A DNA stretch of 64,000 bases from Hyphomonas sp. (GTDB taxonomy: Bacteria > Pseudomonadota > Alphaproteobacteria > Caulobacterales > Hyphomonadaceae): the NCBI GenBank assembly GCA_002700305.1, contig PACZ01000054.1, forward strand, positions 1 to 64,000, in the 5' to 3' direction. How positions within the stretch are numbered: position 1 is the stretch's first letter; each line of letters begins with the position of its first letter. Below, piece after piece: positions 1 to 20,409 of the stretch. Position numbers and translations under genes: made by a program. Under the pieces are notes generated by a model. That model was not told the origin of the DNA and did no database searches. It worked only from the letters and a program-made list of their open reading frames with translations.

Positions 1-33
1 AATAATCTCTTCAGGCGTAGATCTCTTGCCCAT
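1..33 (-). CDS. Transposase OrfA, N-terminal fragment (IS3-type)
   Basis: Only the first eleven codons are present, reading MGKRSTPEEII, and the frame is open at the window edge. An N-terminus with basic residues followed by (S/T)PEEII is typical of the small OrfA helix-turn-helix protein of IS3-family elements, which binds the element ends and is fused to the OrfB integrase by frameshifting. The ATG stands about 65 bases inside the presumed terminal repeat, as expected for this family. With so few residues the subgroup cannot be assigned. Confidence 0.55.
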   Translation of the reverse strand, partial: MGKRSTPEEII

Positions 34-99
34 GTCTCAGCTCCATATCTGAAGCCGGAACTAACTCAAATAATGGACCACTTTTCAGGGAGCAGACCA
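1..99 (-). mobile_element. End of an IS3-family-like insertion sequence (partial)
   Basis: The first 99 bases look like one end of an insertion sequence whose body lies left of the window. On the minus strand a transposase start codon lies at position 33. The probable terminal inverted repeat begins near position 99 and starts TGGTCTGCTCCC in the minus orientation. The boundary is inferred because the HNH gene entering from the right loses its expected sequence exactly there. The other inverted repeat and the target duplication are outside the window, so the family rests on the transposase N-terminus only. Confidence 0.6.
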
Positions 100-484: not shown

Positions 485-1675
485 TCAGGAAAGTGCCACG
501 GGCTCCACATCGCATTCTTCATGTATTGGCGAAATTCGATCGCTATATCGAAATGTCGCTGACGCAAAAAATCCGGCGCACTGTTCTTTTACGGAACAAC
601 CATCACACTCAGTCATATATTCTTGCTTCCAGTCGCTTATCGAGCGCCTGGTAAATTGCCAGATTGATGGGTCAGTCAGACATAATTGTGCATTGTAAAC
701 TGACACTCTCATGCGCGCCCGATCGAGAATGCCCACAGCTTCTTTCAGTTCGGCTTTATAGTCAGCAGGATCGATCCAAAGCTGCTCAAGGTTTGCTTTT
801 GTGAAGCCAGTCATTTCGAGACCCATCAGTGCAATGTGATCCGCGAACAGTAAGTTACGGGTTATGAACTCAGCTAAGTGAGGAAGGCGAGGAATGGTCT
901 GCTTGTGGAGAACCACTCGTAGCTCTACGGGGACGCCGTGTCGCTTCAAATTGATTATTCCGCGAATAGTTTCGTCATACGCCCCGTCCGATTGAACCAC
1001 ATAATCATGAATGTTCGATAGGTCAGAGTACAGAGGAATACCCAGCATCAAGTCCGGGTGCTCTATTCGGCCTAGAGCGCTCGCAAACCGATCATCTGAA
1101 AAAGCCCTGCCGTTGGTTAGGACCATCAAGGCAGTTCGTGGTAGGTAGGCTTTACTTGCTTGCACGAGATTCAGGAAGCGATCCCCGATTACCGTCGGTT
1201 CCCCACCGCTAAAGCAAAGGTAGGAGGTTTCGGGATCAATTAATGGCAACGCAGCCATTATTTCATCATAAATCCAGTCATCGTCAACGTTTCGAGGCGG
1301 CTGAGAACACATGAGACAGTAGTGGTTGCAGCGCTCAGTTATCAGGAAACTGTTGTGTGATGATGAGCGTCGGTAGATCGCTCGCAGCTCATTTCTTGTG
1401 GGCACAATGCGAACCACATCCCCGTCCGCCAAATACTCGAACTCATCTGGGACGATGATGAGTGGTTGGCCAACAATATTATCAGGTATCGGGGTGCTCT
1501 CACTGGTAATGTACCAACGATATCCCTCAGGAGGTGTTCCGCCTTGGTACAAATAAGCTTCTTGTGCCCGCAGGGGAGGGGGGCGCGATTGGGTCGCAGT
1601 TATTCTAACTACTTCTCGCTCAGACCGGCTGCTGGTGTTGCGAAATTCAATTTTTCTAGAGCCTAGAATAATCAT
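485..1675 (-). CDS. hxsC: His-Xaa-Ser system radical SAM maturase HxsC
   Basis: This 396-residue protein is a radical SAM enzyme. The CxxxCxxC cluster motif is at Cys116, Cys120 and Cys123 in the context ERCNHYCLMCSQPP, followed by a CFSGGEPT box that contacts SAM. A cysteine-rich tail (ECDGC near residue 355, then EQC) could hold an auxiliary cluster. The roughly 100-residue extension before the radical SAM core and the order of the neighbouring genes match HxsC, one of two maturases predicted to modify the His-Xaa-Ser repeat protein. The chemistry of the modification is unknown to me. The ATG overlaps the hxsB stop by one base (TAATG), which implies translational coupling. Confidence 0.87.
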   Translation of the reverse strand: MIILGSRKIEFRNTSSRSEREVVRITATQSRPPPLRAQEAYLYQGGTPPEGYRWYITSESTPIPDNIVGQPLIIVPDEFEYLADGDVVRIVPTRNELRAIYRRSSSHNSFLITERCNHYCLMCSQPPRNVDDDWIYDEIMAALPLIDPETSYLCFSGGEPTVIGDRFLNLVQASKAYLPRTALMVLTNGRAFSDDRFASALGRIEHPDLMLGIPLYSDLSNIHDYVVQSDGAYDETIRGIINLKRHGVPVELRVVLHKQTIPRLPHLAEFITRNLLFADHIALMGLEMTGFTKANLEQLWIDPADYKAELKEAVGILDRARMRVSVYNAQLCLTDPSIWQFTRRSISDWKQEYMTECDGCSVKEQCAGFFASATFRYSDRISPIHEECDVEPVALS

Positions 1676-3135
1676 TATCCGTTCGCCCAGTCTTCGAATA
1701 TTCTTCGAGTTTCGGGGTCGTCATTCATGCGTTCGACTAGGCCCTTGAAAATAGCCATATTACGCCCGCAAAATGCAGAATAGGGCTTTTTCCCTACGCA
1801 ATCGCCTTGTGTGGCGTGATGAAATACCGGGTCGGATCCGCACCACGGTTCAAACGCACACCATGAGCACATTGGAGTGCTGGGCGCGAATGACTTTTCA
1901 ATAGGGTCTAGCAGGCTGTCACCTAAGAATATGTCTTCGTAGTCGTCCTCGTGGACATTCCCCAGCTTGAAGGTTTTATCATTCATTTCGGCGAGCATTC
2001 GTGCTTCGTCGGATGCGTACACATCGCCGTCGTAATTGTAGACAACGGCGCCTATGCCAATTCCTGATGGGCTCATTAGGTCCACGTAACCTGGTTGGAA
2101 CGGCGTGAGCATTTTCCGGAGTATCATTGAGGCGTATTGTTCCGAAAAATTAAATCCACTTTTGTTCAGCTCAATGATGTAATCCAAACCTTCGAAGTAG
2201 AAGTTCAGCCACCTCTCATGATTGTAGGACTGATAAAATTTGGTCTTCAGCGCAAAGCCATATGGGCTAAGTGCGCGAAGAAAAATGCCTCGGAACCCTT
2301 GCCTGATGTACTCATCGATTATGTCACGCGAGCGATCAAGGCTCGCGGCGGTTGTGGTCATTAGCGCGCTAACATGGTCACGGCCAACAATAGCCCTCGC
2401 TCTATTGATCCCAGTTATTGTGCGTTCATAGGAGTCGCCTCCAGGCCTTGGTCTATTCTTGTTATGTAAATCCTGCGGACCATCAAGGGATGTGGAAATG
2501 AATACGCCATGCTGTCGGGCAATTTCCAAAGCACGTTCATCGAGTACCGCTAGGTTTGTGGCAAATACGAAAGCGAGGTCGCGCCGTTCAACTTCGTTAC
2601 GTCGCTTTGCCTCGTTTATAATGAACTCGATAATATCAAGGTTGAGGAGTGATTCACCGCCTTGAAATTCAATTTTGATTGCAGGGGATGGGGATTGAAA
2701 GACCAAATCCAGAGCACGTGACGCCGTGTCTTCGGTCATATCAAAATCGGTGCGATTGTCGTTCGCTCGGGAAACCTGGCAGTACGGACAGGAATGTTCG
2801 CATCGAAGAGTGACAACAAAGATGTGGAGGCCCGTGAAGTTTGCCAGCGGACTGAGCTTCGTTCTCACTTTAAGCGCCAGCAGATCCAGCGCCACATCAG
2901 AGTCACTGTCGATCAGGAAGTGCTTGGACTTCAACTCGTCGTACAATGAGGAGTTATGACTCAGTCGGCCTTCTGAGAACGTAGCCAGACTTTCCCGATC
3001 AGTTACAATGAACTCCCCGGCCATGTTCGTAAGAACATATTTCGTGGAGTTTAATGGCATGAAGCGGAAAGGCAGTGGCTTATAGCCAGAGGCCAAGTTG
3101 TCCGAGTAGGATTGGAGGTCAGTGAATTTCGCCAT
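1675..3135 (-). CDS. hxsB: His-Xaa-Ser system radical SAM maturase HxsB
   Basis: This 486-residue radical SAM protein carries the cluster motif at Cys112, Cys116 and Cys119 (RCEHSCPYCQ) and an EFQGGE SAM-binding box. Its C-terminal SPASM-like domain has many cysteines (CSWC, PWCGSD, GDCVG, FCGRN) that would bind auxiliary iron-sulphur clusters, as in peptide-modifying enzymes such as sactipeptide maturases. The gene follows hxsD with a 17-base overlap and runs into hxsC. By family knowledge it is one of the paired maturases of the His-Xaa-Ser system, and its likely substrate is the HxsA peptide encoded upstream. It acts in the cytoplasm, before any export of HxsA. Confidence 0.9.
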   Translation of the reverse strand: MAKFTDLQSYSDNLASGYKPLPFRFMPLNSTKYVLTNMAGEFIVTDRESLATFSEGRLSHNSSLYDELKSKHFLIDSDSDVALDLLALKVRTKLSPLANFTGLHIFVVTLRCEHSCPYCQVSRANDNRTDFDMTEDTASRALDLVFQSPSPAIKIEFQGGESLLNLDIIEFIINEAKRRNEVERRDLAFVFATNLAVLDERALEIARQHGVFISTSLDGPQDLHNKNRPRPGGDSYERTITGINRARAIVGRDHVSALMTTTAASLDRSRDIIDEYIRQGFRGIFLRALSPYGFALKTKFYQSYNHERWLNFYFEGLDYIIELNKSGFNFSEQYASMILRKMLTPFQPGYVDLMSPSGIGIGAVVYNYDGDVYASDEARMLAEMNDKTFKLGNVHEDDYEDIFLGDSLLDPIEKSFAPSTPMCSWCAFEPWCGSDPVFHHATQGDCVGKKPYSAFCGRNMAIFKGLVERMNDDPETRRIFEDWANG

Positions 3136-3430
3136 TCTGACCGACTCGGGAAAAGGCCAGACCGAGCACTAAATTTCTTAGAGGTTCCGTCTGGGCTTCA
3201 ATGGACAGGCGCAAATCTTGATCAAGCACCTCCTGCCGAAAGTTCGCTGCAACGTTTTCTGCTGGCTCGTCTGATTTAACTAACAGCTTGCAGATAATCT
3301 TCTCGCCTGCGGTGGTGATATCACACACCACGTCCTTCATCATGACGTAAGCAGCGCGCTTGCATGCCTCGGCATTGTAGACGGAGGCGTCAAACTCCAG
3401 ACACAACTCGGGTTGGACTTTCTCAGCCAT
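3119..3430 (-). CDS. hxsD: His-Xaa-Ser system protein HxsD
   Basis: This is a small protein of 103 residues with no signal peptide or membrane segment. The sequence has the HxsD pattern: an N-terminal strand, a helix with EACKRAAY near residue 22, a beta-rich middle, and a conserved QEVLDQDLRLSIEAQTE stretch near residues 66-82 ending in LGLAFS. HxsD is found next to HxsB and HxsC in His-Xaa-Ser loci. Its size and position suggest an accessory role such as recognising the precursor, but that is inference. The gene lies 45 bases after hxsA and overlaps hxsB by 17 bases. Confidence 0.85.
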   Translation of the reverse strand: MAEKVQPELCLEFDASVYNAEACKRAAYVMMKDVVCDITTAGEKIICKLLVKSDEPAENVAANFRQEVLDQDLRLSIEAQTEPLRNLVLGLAFSRVGQNGEIH

Positions 3431-3475
3431 CCTGCCGACCCAGCTAAAAGCCGCTTTTTCTAAGCGAATAGTGCA

Positions 3476-3754
3476 TCAGAACGAGCTGGATGAGTGCGAG
3501 CTATGGCTGGAATGAGAGCTATGGCTTGAATGAGATGAATGGGAAGAATGGCTTGAATGCGATGCGTGCGCAGCCATTTCCATCCCTTTGCTCGATTGAT
3601 CCAGAACCACGTCAATATCAGCGGACGGCTGAGCACTAGCAATTCTCTGAGCCGTAGCGCCGGAAACAATCGGGCTGATGGCAGCTTGAGCCTGGGAACT
3701 TGCCAAGACCGTAGCAACGCTGACAGCGAAGGGCTTTAGAAATTTTCTTTTCAT
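3476..3754 (-). CDS. hxsA: His-Xaa-Ser repeat precursor peptide (HxsA family)
   Basis: The 92-residue product begins with a Sec-type signal peptide (MKRK, hydrophobic core, likely cleavage after AQA near residue 24). A Ser/Ala-rich middle follows. The tail has nine H-x-S units, His63 to His87 at every third residue, one HAS followed by eight HSS, and ends SSSSF. This repeat defines the HxsA precursors of His-Xaa-Ser systems, and the maturases HxsB, HxsC and the partner HxsD are encoded directly downstream. The natural inference is that the repeats are the modified segment and that the product is exported. The function of the mature product is not known. The ATG at 3754 has a GGGGGAT ribosome-binding site just upstream. 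Confidence 0.88.
   Translation of the reverse strand: MKRKFLKPFAVSVATVLASSQAQAAISPIVSGATAQRIASAQPSADIDVVLDQSSKGMEMAAHASHSSHSSHSSHSSHSSHSSHSSHSSSSF
3488..3568 (-). repeat. hxsA: Nine-unit codon repeat encoding the H-x-S tail of HxsA
   Basis: Nine consecutive 9-base units each encode His-x-Ser. His is CAT in seven units and CAC in two, while Ser varies among TCA, TCT, TCC, TCG and AGC. The DNA repeat is therefore degenerate while the amino acid repeat is exact after the first unit, which points to selection on the peptide rather than recent expansion. Confidence 0.85.
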
Positions 3755-3933: not shown

Positions 3934-4010
3934 TGGCGCACCCAAGAGGATTTGAACCTCTGACCTCTGCCTTCGGAGGGCAGCGCTCTATCCAGCTGAG
4001 CTATGGGTGC
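3934..4010 (-). tRNA. tRNA-Arg (anticodon CCG)
   Basis: A full cloverleaf reads on the minus strand. The acceptor stem is GCACCCA/TGGGTGC, the D-arm contains AGCTCAGCTGGATAGAGC, the anticodon stem CTGCC/GGCAG encloses loop CTCCGAA (anticodon CCG, reading CGG), the T-arm contains GGTTCAAATCC, and the discriminator G is followed by an encoded CCA. The 3' end faces the lower-GC His-Xaa-Ser region, so this gene is a plausible integration site. Confidence 0.95.
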
Positions 4011-4150
4011 CAAGCCGAGGCCGGTGAATAAGCCAAGCTGGCGCGCAGTGCAATGGCGCAGTGCCGCTGTCGGCGGGTGCAGTTGCGGTGCTTCCCCGGC
4101 GGGGAGGGCCGGTCTAGGGTGCCGGCGATTGGGCAGAAGAGGTTTTCTCC

Positions 4151-5149
4151 ATGAAGCATGCGGGTTGGGCGGCATTTGCCGCCACGGCGATGATGCTGGT
4201 TGTGGCTGCGTGCGGTGGCGGCGGCACGGTCGAAGACAAGCCGGATCTTTCTCCGGAAGCCGAACGCGCCGCGCGCGTGGCAGAGCAGGAGGCGCTTTAC
4301 GAGGCTGCCCTTGCCGCGGCGGAGGCGAGCCGCGGCGCAGGCGAACCGGCGGTCTGGACGCTGGCCGACGAGGACACGACCATCTACATCATGGGCACGG
4401 TCCATTTGCTGCGCCCGGAGCTCGACTGGCGATCCGACGAGATCGACACCGCCCTGAACGAAGCCGGCACGCTGGTCTTTGAGACCGATGTGTCGAGCCC
4501 GGAAGCGGCCCGCGAGATGATGAACTTCATCAGCACCCATGCCGTCTTCACCGATGGCCGCCAGCTGACCAGCCTTCTGGACAAATCCGAACAGGCCGAA
4601 CTTCAGGCGGCGCTCGATTATCTCGATTATCCCCTTGGGGCGATGCAGACGTTCCGGCCCTGGTATGCGGCGGTGAATTTGTCGGTCCTGCAAATGCAGA
4701 AGGACGGCTTCGACCCCTCTGCCGGGGTGGAGCAGGTGCTGGAGCGGGAAGGCAAGGCGGCCGGCAAGAACTTTGCCTATCTCGAAACCATCGAGGAACA
4801 GCTCGGCCGCTTCGCGAACCTGCCGGATGACGAGCAGGTCGACTTCCTGGTTTCCTCCGCAGAGTCGGTGGAGGAGGGGAGCGAGATGCTCGATGTCCTT
4901 GTCAGCGAGTGGGAAGATGGCGACGTGAACGGCCTTGCCGCGCTGATGTCCAATCCGGAGATGATGGGATCGGAAGCGATTTATGACGCGCTCCTGAAAG
5001 ACCGCAACGAAGCCTGGGTGCCGAAGATCGAAGCCATGCTGGATGCGCCGGGCACGGTGCTGATCGCCGTCGGCGCCGGGCACCTCGCCGGTGAAGACAG
5101 CGTGATCGAACTCCTCCGCGCCGACGGCCATGAGGTCGAAGGCCCGTAA
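4151..5149 (+). CDS. TraB/GumN family lipoprotein
   Basis: The 332-residue product starts with a lipoprotein signal peptide (MKHAGWAAFAATAMM, lipobox VAAC with Cys near residue 21). The body has the family's opening signature, AVWTLADEDTTIYIMGTVHLL near residues 65-85, with the GTVH motif. The paired FETD motif and a closing IAVGAGHLAGEDSVIELL block near residue 310 complete the TraB/GumN (PF01963) fold, which is related to the Tiki metalloproteases. A membrane-anchored periplasmic hydrolase is likely but its substrate is unknown. It stands alone, with the tRNA-Arg gene divergent upstream and the small minus-strand gene at 5218 converging on it. Confidence 0.85.
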   Translation: MKHAGWAAFAATAMMLVVAACGGGGTVEDKPDLSPEAERAARVAEQEALYEAALAAAEASRGAGEPAVWTLADEDTTIYIMGTVHLLRPELDWRSDEIDTALNEAGTLVFETDVSSPEAAREMMNFISTHAVFTDGRQLTSLLDKSEQAELQAALDYLDYPLGAMQTFRPWYAAVNLSVLQMQKDGFDPSAGVEQVLEREGKAAGKNFAYLETIEEQLGRFANLPDDEQVDFLVSSAESVEEGSEMLDVLVSEWEDGDVNGLAALMSNPEMMGSEAIYDALLKDRNEAWVPKIEAMLDAPGTVLIAVGAGHLAGEDSVIELLRADGHEVEGP

Positions 5150-5217
5150 GCCCCAGCACATGCGACGCCCGTGAAGGCGCTTGGTGTGGAGGCTGGATTT
5201 TCAGGTCAGGGCCGGGC

Positions 5218-5604
5218 TCAGCTTTCCGGCAGGGGCAGAAGGTAGGCCGGCACAACAGACGCAGGCGCCTCCATGCGCGGCGCGCGCAAGCGACAGGCCT
5301 GCGGGAAGCAAGGCACAAGGGCGGTATAAGCGGGCACAGCCATCCGCCCGTCGCACGCGGCGGCGAGACGATCAGAGGCATGGGCGGCAGGTTTGAGAAT
5401 CGCCCGCTCTGTCTTCTGCCCCGGCATCCAGTCGATCCTGACCAGATAGACGCGGAGGTTCGGCGTGAGGCTCCAGCGATACACGACACCCCGGCCATAG
5501 GCGGCCCGGATCTGCGCGCGCAGCATCAGCACCTGGACCCAGATCATGGGCCAGAGGAAGGTGAGCTGCGGTGGGAACCAGGCGGGAGGATGAAAGAGTG
5601 ACAT
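5218..5604 (-). CDS. Small hypothetical protein
   Basis: I do not recognise this 128-residue protein. It opens with MSLFHPPAW and an aromatic, hydrophobic N-terminal helix (FLWPMIWVQVLMLRAQ, residues 16-31) that could associate with the membrane. A basic region of short strands follows (VYRWSLTPN, VYLVRIDWMPGQ), then a proline-rich tail. Codon third positions look GC-rich in this frame, as in neighbouring genes, which supports coding. I took the ATG at 5604; the frame stays open upstream but has no better start. It is flanked by convergent traB-like and divergent repeat-rich DNA, so context gives no hint of function. Confidence 0.55.
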   Translation of the reverse strand: MSLFHPPAWFPPQLTFLWPMIWVQVLMLRAQIRAAYGRGVVYRWSLTPNLRVYLVRIDWMPGQKTERAILKPAAHASDRLAAACDGRMAVPAYTALVPCFPQACRLRAPRMEAPASVVPAYLLPLPES

Positions 5605-7440: not shown

Positions 7441-7665
7441 GGCCGGAAGGTCAAATCTACTGTATTTATTGGGTATTTTACGTCTCCTGTGCGTTCAAAT
7501 GAGCGCTTTTCTGTCGTTCTGACCGGGCCGGGCGCCGGATAGGCGCGCCTTTGGAGCCATTAACCAAGGTTTCTGCCTGGCTGGCCGGGCCCAATAAAGA
7601 CCGCGCAATGCTGACCTGCGAGGCTGCATGGATACCTTTTCGCAAAAATGCGGGCAGGTGAAAAA
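7441..7665. other. Intergenic DNA without recognised gene
   Basis: I see no credible coding frame between the terminator and the end of the N-formylglutamate amidohydrolase-like gene. An AT-rich patch near 7456-7485 could be a promoter, but nothing downstream on the plus strand is coding for more than 1 kb. Confidence 0.5.
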
Positions 7666-8583
7666 TTACACCTTTGGCAGGATCAGCGCCGTATCCAGCA
7701 ATCCGGAGATAACTGTTTCAATCGCGCCGGCCAGGTCGTCGAACCGGTCCAGGCGTTCGACGGCCTGCTCATCCATATAAAGGCCGCGATTGATCTCGAT
7801 CTGCAGCGCATGGACGCCGCGCCGGGGCTTGCCATAGCGCCGGGTCGTGTAGCCGCCGGCATAGGGCGCGTTGCGCGCGACGCTGAAGCCGAGCTCGCGG
7901 AAGGCCCGTTCGGCCCGGCTGGTCAGGCGCGGATCGCAGGAGGCGCCGAACCGGTCGCCCAATACAATGTCTGCCAGCGCCCGGCGGCCCGGCTGGACCG
8001 ACGGCATGGAGTGGCAGTCGATCAGCACGGCATGGCCATGGGTGTCTCGCAGGGCGGCCAGCTCATCGCCGAGGCAGGCATGATAGGCGTCATGTATATG
8101 GGCCAGGCGCGCTTCGCCTTCTTCGCGGGTCAGGCGGCGGCTGTAGATCTCGGTCCCGCCGGCGGCGACGCGGGGCAGGCAGCCGAGCCCGGCTTCCACT
8201 CTCGCCGTCGGCATGCCGCAGGTGCGGGGCGGGGGACCGTCGAACATGGAGGCGTCCAGTTCGCGCGGGTCGCGGTTGAGGTCTGCCACCGAGCGGCCAT
8301 AGCAGGCGGCCAGCAGCGTCGCCCCGGCGGCCGGCGCGGACGCGAACAATTCTTCTATAAAGGCATCTTCAGTGCGGCGCAGGTCCATCACCGGCACCCG
8401 CAGCGCTTCCAGCATGCTTTCGGGATAGAGCGAGCCGGAATGCGGGGAGGCGAACACGAAAGGCGCCGGCTGTCCGGCAGGCCGGGTCAGCGTGTAGGCC
8501 GGTCCGAAGGATTCCATGCCGCGCGGGCCCGTCCTGACAGGTAAGGGGGCCGGATCGAGGGAAAGGGGCGGGGTCGGACGCAT
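7666..8583 (-). CDS. N-formylglutamate amidohydrolase family protein
   Basis: The 305-residue protein has the signatures of PF05013: ASPHSGSLYPESML near residue 42, RRTEDAFIEELF, the DLNRDPRELD block near 95, LIDCHSMPS near 177, and the NAPYAGGYTTRRYG and ALQIEINRGLYMDE blocks near 230-265. The His, Glu and Asp residues in these motifs bind zinc in the family, which cleaves N-formylglutamate or related N-acyl amino acids, for example at the end of one histidine-degradation route. No other hut gene is nearby, so the true substrate is open. The start at 8583 leaves a divergent gap to cpdR; upstream codons are not protein-like. Confidence 0.85.
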   Translation of the reverse strand: MRPTPPLSLDPAPLPVRTGPRGMESFGPAYTLTRPAGQPAPFVFASPHSGSLYPESMLEALRVPVMDLRRTEDAFIEELFASAPAAGATLLAACYGRSVADLNRDPRELDASMFDGPPPRTCGMPTARVEAGLGCLPRVAAGGTEIYSRRLTREEGEARLAHIHDAYHACLGDELAALRDTHGHAVLIDCHSMPSVQPGRRALADIVLGDRFGASCDPRLTSRAERAFRELGFSVARNAPYAGGYTTRRYGKPRRGVHALQIEINRGLYMDEQAVERLDRFDDLAGAIETVISGLLDTALILPKV

Positions 8584-8744
8584 CGCACCTATCGTTTGCC
8601 TGTTCGTGCCAAGGTCAAGCCCTTCCAAGCGTCTTGGGCAGCGGCAAGGTAAAAAAGACAGCGCGAATTTCGCAAAATTCACCCATGATTTACCCGGATC
8701 ACTGTTTATGCTTAGGCTTATCGGACGGACGAAGGGGGCCCCAG

Positions 8745-9104
8745 GTGACCAAGATCCTGCTGGCTGAAGATGATGATTCCATGCGCGCCTTCCTGGCCGC
8801 GGCGCTGCGCCGTGCCGGGCATGAAGTGCAGGACTATGCCGACGGCGAGACAGCCCTCGCTGCACTTGAGCGCGAAGTGTTCGACCTGCTGCTGACCGAC
8901 ATTGTGATGCCGGGCCTCGACGGGATTGAGCTCGCCCGCCGCGGGGCCGAACTCGATCCGGCCATGAAGATCGTCTTCATTACGGGCTTTGCCGCTGTGG
9001 CGCTGTCGTCCGGAGCGCCGACGCCAGCGGGCGCGAAAGTCCTGTCGAAGCCGTTCCACCTGCGGGAAATCGTCGAGGAAGTCGACAAGGTGATGGCGGC
9101 CTGA
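8745..9104 (+). CDS. cpdR: Response regulator CpdR
   Basis: This 119-residue protein is a stand-alone receiver domain. The acidic pocket AEDDDS is at residues 8-12, the phosphoacceptor is Asp52 in LLLTDIVMPGLDG, and the switch Thr lies in FITGFAAVAL. The ending VLSKPFHLREIV is almost diagnostic for CpdR, which in Caulobacter localises ClpXP to the pole when unphosphorylated and so controls CtrA and PdeA turnover. Phosphorylation would come from the CckA-ChpT relay, not encoded here. The start is a GTG at 8745 with GAAGGGGG about 8 bases before it. An upstream in-frame ATG would add residues not found in the family. Confidence 0.9.
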   Translation: MTKILLAEDDDSMRAFLAAALRRAGHEVQDYADGETALAALEREVFDLLLTDIVMPGLDGIELARRGAELDPAMKIVFITGFAAVALSSGAPTPAGAKVLSKPFHLREIVEEVDKVMAA

Positions 9105-16674: not shown

Positions 16675-17558
16675 GGGCTTAGGGCCTCGATCACCGATTT
16701 CATACCGTTTTCAAATTCGACCTGCGGACGCCAGCCTGTGGCAGCCGTCAGGGCGGAGATGTCTGCAACGACATCCATGACTTCATTTTCGCGGCGCTCG
16801 CCGCGGTCCGAATAGGGTTTATCCGTGCCGGCCGCCTTCAGGCAGGCCGCGATCACGTCGCCCACAGAATGGGACTTGCCGGAGCCGACATTGTACGTGC
16901 CGCCGCCGGACATGCCGATTGTGCTGATCATCGCGTCCACCACATCGTCCACATGGACGAAATCCCGGCGCGGGGCGAGGTCCGCCACGATGATTTCCTT
17001 CACCGACGCGTCGACTGCCTGTCGGGCAATCGTTGGTATCAGGAAGGAGTCCTTCTGGCCGGGGCCGAAGGCGTTGAAGAGGCGCAGCACGGTCACGTCC
17101 AGGCCAAAATTTTTCGCGAAGAAACGGCAGGCGTCCTCCGCCGCAAGCTTCGACCAGGCATAGGGATTGGCCGGGGCAGGCGGGAAATCCTCCGACACAG
17201 GCACCGGGGCGCCAGCGCCGTAGACGAACGTGCTGATGAAGGTCATCGGCACGCCTGCTTTGCGGCACTGGTCCAGCACGCGCACGGTGCCGTGCGTGTT
17301 CACAAGATGATAGGTGGCAGGATCATTCCAGCTGTCCGGCACGAAGGAGAGCGCGCCCAGATGGAAGACATGGCCGGCGCCATCCAGCGGCAGCTCGCCG
17401 GACAGCAGGTCGCCGCCGGTGGAGCGGGAGAAGCCTTTGACCTCAACGCCCGATGCCTGCAGGCGCGCCGTCAGACGGCGTCCCACAAAACCGGTTTCCC
17501 CGGTCACAACAATGCGGCCGGGGAGGGGGTGTTTCGCGATCGGGTCAGTTGCCGGCAC
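16668..17558 (-). CDS. NAD-dependent sugar-nucleotide epimerase/dehydratase
   Basis: This 296-residue extended SDR has the GETGFVGRRLTARL nucleotide-binding motif at residues 18-31, HLGALSFVPDSW, the catalytic YAWSKLAAE (Tyr-x-x-x-Lys) near residue 134, and LRLFNAFGPGQKDSFL, followed by a GGTYNVGSGKSHS substrate block. It resembles GDP- or dTDP-sugar dehydratases and reductases, but motifs alone do not give the substrate. I chose the GTG at 17558, one base after the upstream gene's stop. A longer frame would run back through that gene. It is the second gene of the minus-strand operon. Confidence 0.82.
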   Translation of the reverse strand: MPATDPIAKHPLPGRIVVTGETGFVGRRLTARLQASGVEVKGFSRSTGGDLLSGELPLDGAGHVFHLGALSFVPDSWNDPATYHLVNTHGTVRVLDQCRKAGVPMTFISTFVYGAGAPVPVSEDFPPAPANPYAWSKLAAEDACRFFAKNFGLDVTVLRLFNAFGPGQKDSFLIPTIARQAVDASVKEIIVADLAPRRDFVHVDDVVDAMISTIGMSGGGTYNVGSGKSHSVGDVIAACLKAAGTDKPYSDRGERRENEVMDVVADISALTAATGWRPQVEFENGMKSVIEALSPC

Positions 17559-17559
17559 G

Positions 17560-18279
17560 TCAGAGTCCCAGCTTTTCGCTGAGCTCCGGCCATTCGTCGA
17601 CGGCGCGGAAATAGTCATCCGGCCGGCCGATGTCGAGCCAGTAGCCTTCATGCGTCTGGACGCTGACATCGCGCTTTTCGTCCAGGAAGCGGAGCATCAG
17701 CTGGTCAAAGCCGTAAGCCTGGTCTTCCGGGATGAAGTCCAGCACGCGGCGGCTGAGGCAGTAGACGCCCATCGAGACGAGGTAGGGCGTGCGCGGTTTC
17801 TCGGTGAAGGAGACCAGATGGTCCGCTTCGCAGCCAAGCACACCATAGTCGATCAGCTGTTCGCGCTTGGACGCGGCGATGGTGAAAAGGCGGTCTTCGT
17901 CGGCATGGTTGGCGAAGAAGTCGCCGAAATCGAGGTCGCAGAGAATGTCGCCATTCATCACGATGAAATTCTCCGGCAAGTCCTTCATCAGGTGAAGCGG
18001 ACCCATGGTGCCGAGCGGCTTGGTCTCCAGCGAGTATTCGATGCTGACGCCCAGCTGGCTGCCATCGCCGAAATAGGCGCGCAGGATGTCGGCCTGGTGG
18101 TTCACCGCCAGGATGATGCGGCTGAAGCCTTTGCGGGCCAGTTGCTTGATGATCACCTCAAGAATGGGAGACTCGCCCACCGGCATCAGGGGTTTGGGCA
18201 GCACGACCGTATATGGACGCAGCCGCGATCCAAGGCCCCCCGCCAGAATGACGGCTGTGCGGCCGGTGTCGTTGCTCAT
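17560..18279 (-). CDS. Sugar-1-phosphate nucleotidyltransferase
   Basis: The 239-residue protein is a compact NTP-transferase-fold enzyme. The signature LAGGLGSRLRPYTVVLPKPLMPVG spans residues 12-35, with the metal-site motif NGDILCDLDF near 109 and the closing EGYWLDIGRPDDYFRA block near 210. The family joins an NTP to a sugar 1-phosphate. Its size and LPKPLMPV form are close to glucose-1-phosphate and heptose-1-phosphate transferases, and the epimerase next door would act on its product. It is the first gene of an operon running leftward to 11966, with promoter space in the 207-base divergent gap to the acyltransferase gene. Confidence 0.85.
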   Translation of the reverse strand: MSNDTGRTAVILAGGLGSRLRPYTVVLPKPLMPVGESPILEVIIKQLARKGFSRIILAVNHQADILRAYFGDGSQLGVSIEYSLETKPLGTMGPLHLMKDLPENFIVMNGDILCDLDFGDFFANHADEDRLFTIAASKREQLIDYGVLGCEADHLVSFTEKPRTPYLVSMGVYCLSRRVLDFIPEDQAYGFDQLMLRFLDEKRDVSVQTHEGYWLDIGRPDDYFRAVDEWPELSEKLGL

Positions 18280-18486
18280 ATGAATACTCCTGTCCCCAGT
18301 CTGTGCAGCGTGTGGCGTCTGTTCGGATTACCCCAAGAAGGCTGCAATAACCTTGCCATTTAAACAGGAAATTTCACTCGCGTCTGGTGTAAATCGGAAC
18401 ACTTTCCGGGCGAGTGGGCGAAAGGCCGGTGGTCCCGCCGGGAGATTCCGGTCGACTGGCATGCCTGATGCAGAAATTCCAGAGTC

Positions 18487-20409
18487 ATGAACGCTGAGGC
18501 CCCTCGCAAACCAGTCCATCAGGACCCCGGTGCAAAACCGGGCTACCGGGCTGATGTGGACGGGCTGCGTGCCGTCGCTGTGGTGGCCGTGCTTTTCTTT
18601 CATGCGGGATGGAGCCGGTTTTCCGGCGGGTTTGCCGGGGTCGACGTGTTTTTCGTCATTTCCGGTTTCGTGATCGCGCTCAGCCTGTTCCGGGACCTGG
18701 ATGCCGGACGGTTTTCGCTGAGCGGCTTCTTTGCCCGGCGGGCGCGGCGCATCCTGCCGGCGCTGACGGTGGTCCTGCTGGGTACGCTGCTGGTTAGCCT
18801 CACCATCGTACCGCCGGTCTATTTCCAGCCTTTCGCGGATAGTCTGATCGCCGCCTCGCTCTTCGTCTCGAACCTGCATTTCTGGCAGGCCAGTTCCTAC
18901 TTCAACAATGACATGCCGTTCCGGCCGCTGCTGCATACCTGGTCGCTGGGGGTGGAGGAGCAGTTCTATCTGGCTGCGCCGGTGTTGTTGCTGCTGATCC
19001 AGCGCTTTCTGGCCGGGCGCTGGCGGCTGGTGGTGACGCTCTGCCTGATCGGGTCTTTTGCCCTGAACCTCCGCGCCGTGGAGAACGGCCATCTGGACGC
19101 GGCCTTCTACCTGCCCTTTACGCGGGCCTGGGAGTTCCTGCTGGGGGTCCTGATCGCGCTGCTGCCGCGACCGGGCCTGCCGCGCGGCTGGAACGAGCTG
19201 GGCACGCTGGCGGGCCTCGCGATGATCGCCGGATCGGTGCTCCTGTTCGGGCCAGGCACGCCGTTTCCGGGCGTTGCTGCACTCGGGCCCTGTCTCGGGG
19301 CCGGGCTGGTGATCTGGTTCGGCAAGCCGGCGGGGGAAGGGGGCGTCCCGCTCGTGTCGCGCGTCCTGGCGCTGAAACCCGTCGTCTGGACCGGGCGGAT
19401 TTCCTATTCGCTCTATCTTGTGCACTGGCCGGTGCTGGTGCTGGCGCCCTTCCTGATGATGCGGCGGCTCACCCTGCCGGAGACATTCGCTGCGCTTGGC
19501 CTCTGCATCCTGCTCGCCTGGCTGGTTTACCGCTTTGTCGAGACGCCGATGCGGCAGATCCGCTGGAAAACCCCCGCTGTGCTGGTGGCTGCATTGGTCT
19601 GCGCGACGGGCACGGCGGCGGCCGGATGGGCCGGCGCGAAGGTCAATGCCCGCCTGTTTGCAGATCAGCCCGCTTATCAGCGCGTTCCGGACTTTCACGC
19701 CGCCGAACAGGCCTGGCGCGTCGGCACCTGCCTCCTGCGTGACAGTCAGAGCTGGACCGACTGGCAGGCCGGCGCCTGCACGATCGGTGAGGGCGGCGCG
19801 CCGCCCGTCCTGTTGTTCGGCGACTCCTTTGCGGCGCATTATGTTCCGGGCCTTGTGAGGAGAGGCGGGGCGAACGGGGCACCGGTCATTGAATACGCCA
19901 TGGAGGGATGCCCGCCGACGCTGGCGCCGGACAGTCCCGGCACGTCGGCCTGCCGGGCCTTCCGCGCTCAGGCTGTCGACCTGGCGAGCCGCCTCGGTGT
20001 GGACCATGTGATCGTCGCGGGCAGCTGGTTGGAATATGGCACCGGTATCTCCATGCAGGCAGACAGTACATTAACCGCGTTCAAGGCCGCAGGTATTGAG
20101 GTGACGCTGGTCGGCCAGTCGCCGAATTTCCATATTCCGCCTTACATGATCATCGCCCGGACGGTGCCGCCGGATGCACCGCAGGCGAGCCTGCCGCTCA
20201 GCGCCGAGGCCCGGGCGATGAATACAAGACTGGCGCGTCTCGCTGCGCGGAACGGGGCGGCATTCATTGACCCGGCCGCCTTGCTCTGCCCGGATGGCAT
20301 TTGTCCGGTCCGCCTGGCAGGGAAGGATCTTTATCTCGATTATGGCCACTTCACACAGGCGGGCTCCATCGAGGTGTCTGGCGCTGTGTTCCCGGACCGG
20401 ATTCCCTGA
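18487..20409 (+). CDS. OafA-like acyltransferase with C-terminal SGNH domain
   Basis: The 640-residue protein joins an acyltransferase-3 membrane domain to an SGNH hydrolase-like domain. The first part (about 20-385) opens with YRADVDGLRAVAVV, the FFHAGWS catalytic His, and GVDVFFVISGFVI, then ten or so membrane helices. The second part has the Ser motif LLFGDSFAAHYVPG near residue 445 and an LDYGHFTQAGS segment near 617 with the Asp-x-x-His pair. OafA-type proteins O-acetylate lipopolysaccharide or capsule sugars at the periplasmic face, with the SGNH domain passing the acyl group on. The gene stands alone, divergent from the leftward operon. Confidence 0.87.
   Translation: MNAEAPRKPVHQDPGAKPGYRADVDGLRAVAVVAVLFFHAGWSRFSGGFAGVDVFFVISGFVIALSLFRDLDAGRFSLSGFFARRARRILPALTVVLLGTLLVSLTIVPPVYFQPFADSLIAASLFVSNLHFWQASSYFNNDMPFRPLLHTWSLGVEEQFYLAAPVLLLLIQRFLAGRWRLVVTLCLIGSFALNLRAVENGHLDAAFYLPFTRAWEFLLGVLIALLPRPGLPRGWNELGTLAGLAMIAGSVLLFGPGTPFPGVAALGPCLGAGLVIWFGKPAGEGGVPLVSRVLALKPVVWTGRISYSLYLVHWPVLVLAPFLMMRRLTLPETFAALGLCILLAWLVYRFVETPMRQIRWKTPAVLVAALVCATGTAAAGWAGAKVNARLFADQPAYQRVPDFHAAEQAWRVGTCLLRDSQSWTDWQAGACTIGEGGAPPVLLFGDSFAAHYVPGLVRRGGANGAPVIEYAMEGCPPTLAPDSPGTSACRAFRAQAVDLASRLGVDHVIVAGSWLEYGTGISMQADSTLTAFKAAGIEVTLVGQSPNFHIPPYMIIARTVPPDAPQASLPLSAEARAMNTRLARLAARNGAAFIDPAALLCPDGICPVRLAGKDLYLDYGHFTQAGSIEVSGAVFPDRIP

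Follow-up and report, generated by a model that had tools for sequence, protein, structure and literature searches.

Haft and Basu are reportedly to be credited with the His-Xaa-Ser system (HxsA-D), in which a precursor with repeated HxS triads is encoded together with HxsD and two radical S-adenosylmethionine (SAM) enzymes, HxsB and HxsC. The accessible parts of PMC9062424 and PMC7159879 cite Haft and Basu 2011, and the former names HxsB and HxsC as earlier-annotated enzymes on which HxS precursors putatively depend. Available portions of two further papers list hxsA-D beside integrative-element and phage genes (PMC8446631) and place a His-Xaa-Ser system at the site where another Vibrio parahaemolyticus strain has a galactitol cluster (PMC6537148). 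We met no report of the system's product in the literature covered, a partial sample especially for subscription journals. The closest chemical precedent is that of the triceptide pathways (XncB, OscB, MscB, HaaB, YhhB): as described in the accessible part of PMC11002830, radical SAM enzymes with a C-terminal cluster domain join a ring-bearing residue i to a fixed partner at i+2 across a free residue, with His C2 as i in HaaB, ScaB and YhhB, and Ser C-beta as i+2 in MscB. Here we analysed a stretch of 64,000 nucleotides, referred to as the window, from contig PACZ01000054.1 (C6) of the Hyphomonas sp. assembly GCA_002700305.1. The hxs operon in this window is a new member of the His-Xaa-Ser system, in its short-precursor (HxsA2-like) branch, and was acquired as the cargo of an integrative element that uses a tRNA gene as its insertion site.

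Comparison with the NCBIfam profiles placed both enzymes above their equivalog cut-offs, HxsB with 607.5 bits (TIGR03978, cut-off 370) and HxsC with 399.9 bits (TIGR03977, cut-off 267.9). HxsD fell just short of its own (48.9 bits, cut-off 50, TIGR03976); it occupies the right place in the operon and aligns with 37 HxsD proteins of relatives. HxsA scored clearly below all three precursor cut-offs, with 32.9 of 55 bits for HxsA4, 32.8 of 48 for HxsA2 (NF038296) and 23.9 of 121.65 for HxsA (TIGR03979). Judged from sequence, membership of the system is carried by HxsB, HxsC and the gene order. These data bear out an initial annotation, made from the DNA letters alone, which had recognized a His-Xaa-Ser locus: the searches did not place the enzymes in other radical SAM subfamilies, the four open reading frames (ORFs) were all found on the minus strand where it had put them, and the translated ORFs carry the CxxxCxxC motifs at residues 112-119 of HxsB and 116-123 of HxsC, as it had read. 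It had also described a complete, single overlapping operon. The four genes are indeed complete, but only hxsD, hxsB and hxsC overlap (17 bp for hxsD/hxsB, 1 bp for hxsB/hxsC), hxsA being set 45 bp apart, and completeness is limited to these four, since window base 1 is also the first base of the contig, whose end truncates a nuclease gene of the same orientation. In line with its description, no dedicated transporter or protease was seen beside hxs within the window. A weak terminator-like hairpin on the coding strand between hxsA and hxsD (3467-3451), one of 2 such sites in the stretch against 1.0 expected, hints at most at an extra hxsA transcript. Compared with the described system (TIGR03976-TIGR03979, NF038296), the locus shares the four genes, two enzymes over cut-off, an HxS-repeat precursor and a signal-like start, but differs by its subthreshold HxsA and HxsD and by the order A-D-B-C with a short, unanchored HxsA, which it has in common with the rest of its branch, as opposed to D-B-C-A with a peptidoglycan-binding HxsA. 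A TIGR03979 search of the same genome pointed to three places outside the window, matching the C-terminal part of the profile.

The mobility of the operon escaped the initial annotation, to which it was not visible. hxsA lies beyond the 3' end of tRNA-Arg(CCG), of which a 50-bp copy (98%) is present at C5:9996-10045, on another contig of the assembly, about 155 bp from the gene of a 415-residue tyrosine integrase (Phage_integrase, 82.4 bits). In G1339, a genome of the same species (locus L134), window 3934-5445 aligns to 17489-19001 with 97.4% identity and C5 9996-14000 aligns to 17538-13535 with 98.7% identity, and the two flanks share exactly the 50 bp, indicating an empty site. Because the tRNA end is duplicated, an integrase adjoins the copy and a relative retains the empty site, we conclude that the hxs operon is mobile cargo of a tRNA-targeted integrative element. 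The two island parts have a G+C content of 0.497 and 0.526, lower than that of the flanks (0.607 and 0.625), and among 10 genomes of the genus searched HxsB is present in this one and absent (E<=1e-20) from the other 9. The parts seen span 3.9 kb and 10.0 kb; the stretch between them, which falls between contigs C6 and C5, begins with a multi-copy repeat, window 1-90, which recurs over 81-90 bases with 98-100% identity at C11:1-90, C31:35924-36012 and C4:116947-117027. This repeat, a probable insertion sequence, had no match in the plasmid records searched. The tRNA end is also found copied close to this tRNA in some other genomes of the genus: in one congener (L138 1425-7983), copies of the tRNA-Arg end enclose a different small stretch, which matches the integrase end of C5 at 71%. 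Elsewhere, a tRNA-Arg(CCT) lies about 320 bp before another hxs operon (L093 8259-8335) and a tRNA-Ser about 90 bp after a third (L075 11654-11743), possible further tRNA-borne insertions.

The 92-residue HxsA was found as initially described, with nine consecutive HxS units followed by SSF and a predicted signal peptide extending to about residue 24 (AQA), judged by eye and simple counts. Its tail mixes TCN and AGY codons for Ser and CAT and CAC for His, and the mixtures differ among the six tails compared (window, L004, L005, L006, L062 and L007), which fits selection on the protein; the repeat thus looks kept at the protein level. Across 57 loci surveyed (the window, genome contigs, plasmids, phages and whole genomes, some of them near-duplicates), a run of at least three HxS units lies near hxsB in 54. 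It is missing at L061, at L076, a distant HxsB match (277 bits) where no hxsC was found, and at L094, where HxsB is incomplete and close to the end of its contig. When 20 short HxsA are aligned, nine columns of the repeat show an unvarying H or S, and the middle residue varies among 52 distinct precursors (S 142, R 78, A 35, Y 29, G 8, Q 7, T 5, V 4, and N, C, M and H 2 each). The runs were picked by H and S, so that the fixity of these residues is partly built in; their recurrence and the free middle residue constitute independent evidence. The proposal that His and/or Ser is the target of modification thereby gains indirect support. Modification before Sec export, also proposed, is one possibility among several, since the leaders of the 20 short HxsA carry R two residues before F-L/M in 14 cases and RR in 2. 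The K/R-R-x-F-L/M pattern is found in 10/20, and a twin-arginine translocation (Tat) signal was considered for it; with RR so rare, Sec, Tat and leader recognition are all possible. The stretch R-x-F-L-x-P of these leaders (R in 14/20, P in 14/20) may serve in recognition, in export or in both.

Seven cysteines (C112, C116, C119, C423, C426, C432 and C456) are invariant in 45 HxsB sequences. Where the aligned anaerobic sulfatase maturase (anSME) and CteB, the SCIFF maturase, carry the cysteine of a 'YPC' stretch, HxsB reads YASDEARM, with D376, E377, R379 and M380 invariant. Because this stretch replaces 'YPC', we infer that HxsB probably lost the cluster that we take to be AuxI, and kept one auxiliary cluster. 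In the HxsB model (predicted local distance difference test score, pLDDT, 84.7; predicted template-modelling score, pTM, 0.86), the first helix is followed at residues 24-99 by three strands and three helices, in what is presumably the order of a RiPP recognition element (RRE; RiPP, ribosomally synthesized and post-translationally modified peptide), suggesting an RRE-like N-terminus. CteB, which also has an RRE domain, is the best of the top Foldseek matches (CteB, anSME, TigE, ChlB and SuiB), over 455-483 columns, and the anSME structures 4k36 (E 2.3e-26) and 4k37 are among the best Protein Data Bank (PDB) profile matches. HxsB is thus related to CteB and anSME by profile and fold but lacks their AuxI cysteine, and most HxsA precursors listed carry no Cys in the repeat. 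HxsC keeps C116, C120, C123, C332, C357, C360 and C366 in 42 sequences, and solved structures match only its core in the PDB profile search. HxsD was found at 49 of the 57 loci, twice weakly, and 38 sequences were aligned. Its model (pLDDT 88.4) is a beta-alpha-beta-beta-long helix; no convincing relative was found in the PDB by sequence (best E 0.019, a designed helix bundle) or by Foldseek at E<=0.001 (best Pcc1, E 0.017, template-modelling score 0.39, too weak to use). An RRE identity for HxsD was rejected because of this topology and the lack of a PDB match at that Foldseek threshold.

The kept residues i and i+2, separated by a free i+1, match the pattern of three-residue cyclophanes and favour a His-Ser cross-link in each triad. 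HxsA would be made in the cytoplasm, where the RRE-like domain of HxsB, aided by HxsD, would grip the leader together with the stretch that precedes the repeat. HxsB would then link the His side chain (i) to the Ser C-beta (i+2) of each triad, yielding imidazole three-residue cyclophanes with a loss of 2 Da per triad, and HxsC would make a second change or share the work. The finished chain would be exported, its signal peptide removed, and the stiff His-rich segment would act in the cell envelope, tethered in sister branches by a peptidoglycan-binding domain, where it may confer some benefit. This cross-linking before export, giving a stiffened envelope protein and not a product that diffuses away, is the reading that we favour, tentatively and with a little less than even confidence. 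The likeness to triceptide maturases is proposed for the way HxsB may work, and for that only: the hxs loci differ from these pathways by their two radical SAM enzymes, HxsD, a long tandem repeat and, in sister branches, an envelope-type precursor, and HxsB lies far under the cut-offs of the YhhB cyclophane-maturase model NF041707 (56.6 bits over residues 108-466, cut-off 445) and of GrrM/OscB TIGR04261 (41.4 bits, cut-off 310). His as i and Ser as i+2 also have their precedents in different enzymes, not in one.

Several observations weigh against the His-Ser cross-link and its place in the envelope. Among 25 of 52 matching families listed, nine other families' models beat that of YhhB on HxsB, including PapB, Nif11-type, CcpM, RumMC, anaerobic sulfatase maturase and SCIFF maturase, and the structures nearest to HxsB are those of a thioether enzyme and of formylglycine-forming sulfatase maturases, so that homology alone does not fix the bond type. 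In addition, HxsA and HxsD are both below their curated cut-offs, the HxsA loci were selected by the very motif whose strictness is at issue, no product of the locus has been seen, the short HxsA has no anchor domain, so that it could be released as a free peptide, and three of eight long HxsA scanned (the long copy of L007, L008 and L021) lack a peptidoglycan-binding match. With 66.0 bits on the anaerobic sulfatase maturase model TIGR03942, HxsB is as near to these enzymes as to cyclophane formers, 4k36 and 4k37 rank among its best structural matches, and HxsC resembles solved relatives only in its core, all of which would fit enzymes that oxidize or otherwise alter Ser (formylglycine-like or aminomalonate-like) or epimerize residues, with His serving for recognition or metal binding and no His-Ser bond formed. 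We consider this somewhat unlikely, as the aligned triads of the 20 short HxsA keep His just as regularly as Ser, which a Ser-only reaction would not need by itself.

The proposed place in the envelope draws on the architecture of the precursors. Short-type operons start with hxsA (A-D-B-C), and of the 25 short HxsA listed, 23 have 2-7 residues beyond the run, the exceptions being L018 and L090 with 15 and 16 residues. In the long type, hxsA comes last (D-B-C-A), or first in two Bacteroidota plasmids, and the run is followed by at least 112 further residues (87 in L021), with PG_binding_1 over cut-off in five of the eight scanned (L019, L044, L069, L070 and L079). On a 45-row HxsB tree, whose deep joins are made uncertain by some long branches, 3 changes account for the short type, compared with 15.2 under shuffling, where none of 500 replicates came as low. 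In these sequences, the architecture of HxsA follows the HxsB tree, on which the window groups with L004 and L005 (starred group, 100/99). The Candidatus Eremiobacterota metagenome-assembled genome (MAG) L007 carries tandem hxsA genes (7659-8784), encoding a 271-residue protein whose C-terminal part has no Pfam match and a 95-residue short one. In three Sphingobium loci (L020 10676-14132, L080 8676-12126 and L006 12676-15132), an S8 peptidase gene converges on the end of the hxs operon (Peptidase_S8, 151 bits in L006), and the plasmid records L020 and L080 also annotate an adjoining ATP-binding or AAA ATPase gene; the peptidase could process HxsA, or the two could be an unrelated pair. An RRE on a radical SAM maturase is a typical mark of RiPP pathways, and the missing anchor, the mobile carriage and a peptidase able to release the peptide in three related loci would suit a free product acting on other bacteria, as a bacteriocin or signal. 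We regard this as very unlikely: sister branches hold the repeat inside a peptidoglycan-binding protein, which also weakens the natural product initially suggested, and among the annotated loci we saw no recurrent transporter dedicated to the system and no recurrent immunity-like gene.

TIGR03978 searches at E<=1e-80 recovered HxsB in 8/299 genomes of the order, 8/385 of the class and 15/398 of the phylum, each count including this genome and G012, and in 3/76 of the order of G841 and 6/248 of the family of G407, both counts including the genome named. With an HxsB 86% identical, L004 is the closest relative; it lies on a 4.4-kb contig of a Planctomycetales MAG and groups with Sphingobium copies, a placement that may reflect a binning error or recent transfer. 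Plasmid searches (E<=1e-30) returned 410 HxsB records, 317 of them from Klebsiella, the listed Klebsiella copies being about 32% identical to the window HxsB. Phage searches (E<=1e-10) returned two, a Leptospira phage and an unverified faecal clone (L021), and the viral contig collection searched yielded no relative. The Leptospira phage vB_LnoZ_CZ214-LE1 (L018 5627-9590) carries hxsA-D-B-C followed by an annotated 'mobilome CxxCx(11)CxxC protein'. Some plasmid loci have metal or iron genes as neighbours: L062, for instance, lies near genes for a chromate transporter and a superoxide dismutase, and L020 near that for a siderophore receptor. Together with the dense His repeats of an exported-looking protein, this would fit a tail that binds copper, zinc or nickel, with an affinity tuned by the modification and the cassette acting as a metal-tolerance trait. 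Such a role is decidedly unlikely, as the annotated neighbourhoods vary by locus and, on visual inspection, share no recurring metal transporter or sensor.

As far as our searches show, four elements are new here: the island itself, here demonstrated, a division of architectures in step with the enzyme tree, an RRE-like fold with AuxI loss in HxsB, and a specific chemical prediction. For a system named from sequence, the data yield a specific and inexpensive test, a mass change of 2 per HxS triad, from His to Ser, within a four-gene set small enough to suit testing, and they give reason to examine the envelope rather than a secreted antibiotic. Since HxsB relatives are carried on plasmids and in a Leptospira phage record, knowing the function would explain a widely carried trait. 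The features of the locus are collected in Table 1.

Table 1. Features of the hxs locus and its borders, in window coordinates.
Feature	Position	Strand	Description
hxsA	3754-3476	-	92-residue precursor, signal-like start by eye, tail (HxS)9-SSF; HxsA2 32.8 and HxsA4 32.9 bits, subthreshold
hxsD	3430-3119	-	103-residue small partner protein; TIGR03976 48.9 bits; model beta-alpha-beta-beta-long alpha
hxsB	3135-1675	-	Radical SAM enzyme, RRE-like N-terminus; C112/C116/C119 and C423/C426/C432/C456; TIGR03978 607.5 bits
hxsC	1675-485	-	Second radical SAM enzyme; C116/C120/C123 and C332/C357/C360/C366; TIGR03977 399.9 bits
5' piece of GmrSD_C-like nuclease gene	465-85	-	16.8 bits, profile 8-63; cut by contig end
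End of multi-copy repeat (probable insertion sequence)	1..90		Copies on C11, C31 and C4; contig stops here
Attachment-site end, 50 bp	3934..3983	-	Inside 3' end of tRNA-Arg(CCG); copy on C5, empty site in G1339
tRNA-Arg(CCG)	3934..4010	-	Insertion target; tRNA search of window

The truncated gene starts 19 bp after hxsC, with a lipoprotein-like start by eye that makes its product look exported, and matches GmrSD_C, which we take to be an HNH-type nuclease domain. A 3' piece is present in an ORF at the start of C5 (G000:C5:46-354; 22.3 bits, profile 61-126), both pieces scoring below the cut-off of 23. We read the region after hxsC at 34 loci, some near-duplicates, counting same-strand genes within about 20 bp. 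Such a gene matches GmrSD_C in the window (under cut-off) and in L004 (28.4 bits, over cut-off, at a contig end), a staphylococcal nuclease (SNase) in L066 (87.5 bits) and CoiA_N in L078 (36.4 bits, over cut-off; CoiA_nuc 15.4, under). In L067 an SNase match (52.7 bits) lies on the opposite strand, and the genes of L061 and L077 are thermonuclease-like by eye, with no Pfam match. The neighbours in L062, L063 and L064 and a look-alike in L071 had no Pfam match, that of L041 is DUF3251, and the remaining loci have different genes, or none, nearby. An SNase gene is found at most 15 kb from hxs in 5/34 genomes (0.34 expected, P 2.7e-5) and at most 10 kb away in 3 (0.22 expected, P 0.0016), in a test that, like its distances, was chosen after examples had been seen; none of the five directly adjoins hxs, and islands may be nuclease-rich generally. 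As a defining fifth gene of hxs, a linked nuclease is only partly supported by these sequences. One could imagine hxs cassettes as mobile envelope systems, in which tandem His-Ser cyclophanes would make the HxS run a rigid, wall-attached rod that, with a nuclease as companion (GmrSD_C, staphylococcal-nuclease or CoiA-like by locus), would limit the entry of competing phage or plasmid DNA, a scheme that we hold to be highly improbable. Against the PADLOC defence models, HxsB and HxsC matched nothing but pVip, weakly and through the radical SAM core (20-34 bits), the eight other proteins scanned had no match, and a known anti-phage defence system was set aside as there was no specific match. Next to the 3' nuclease piece, C5 encodes an EF-hand protein (464-904; EF-hand_5, 36.1 bits).

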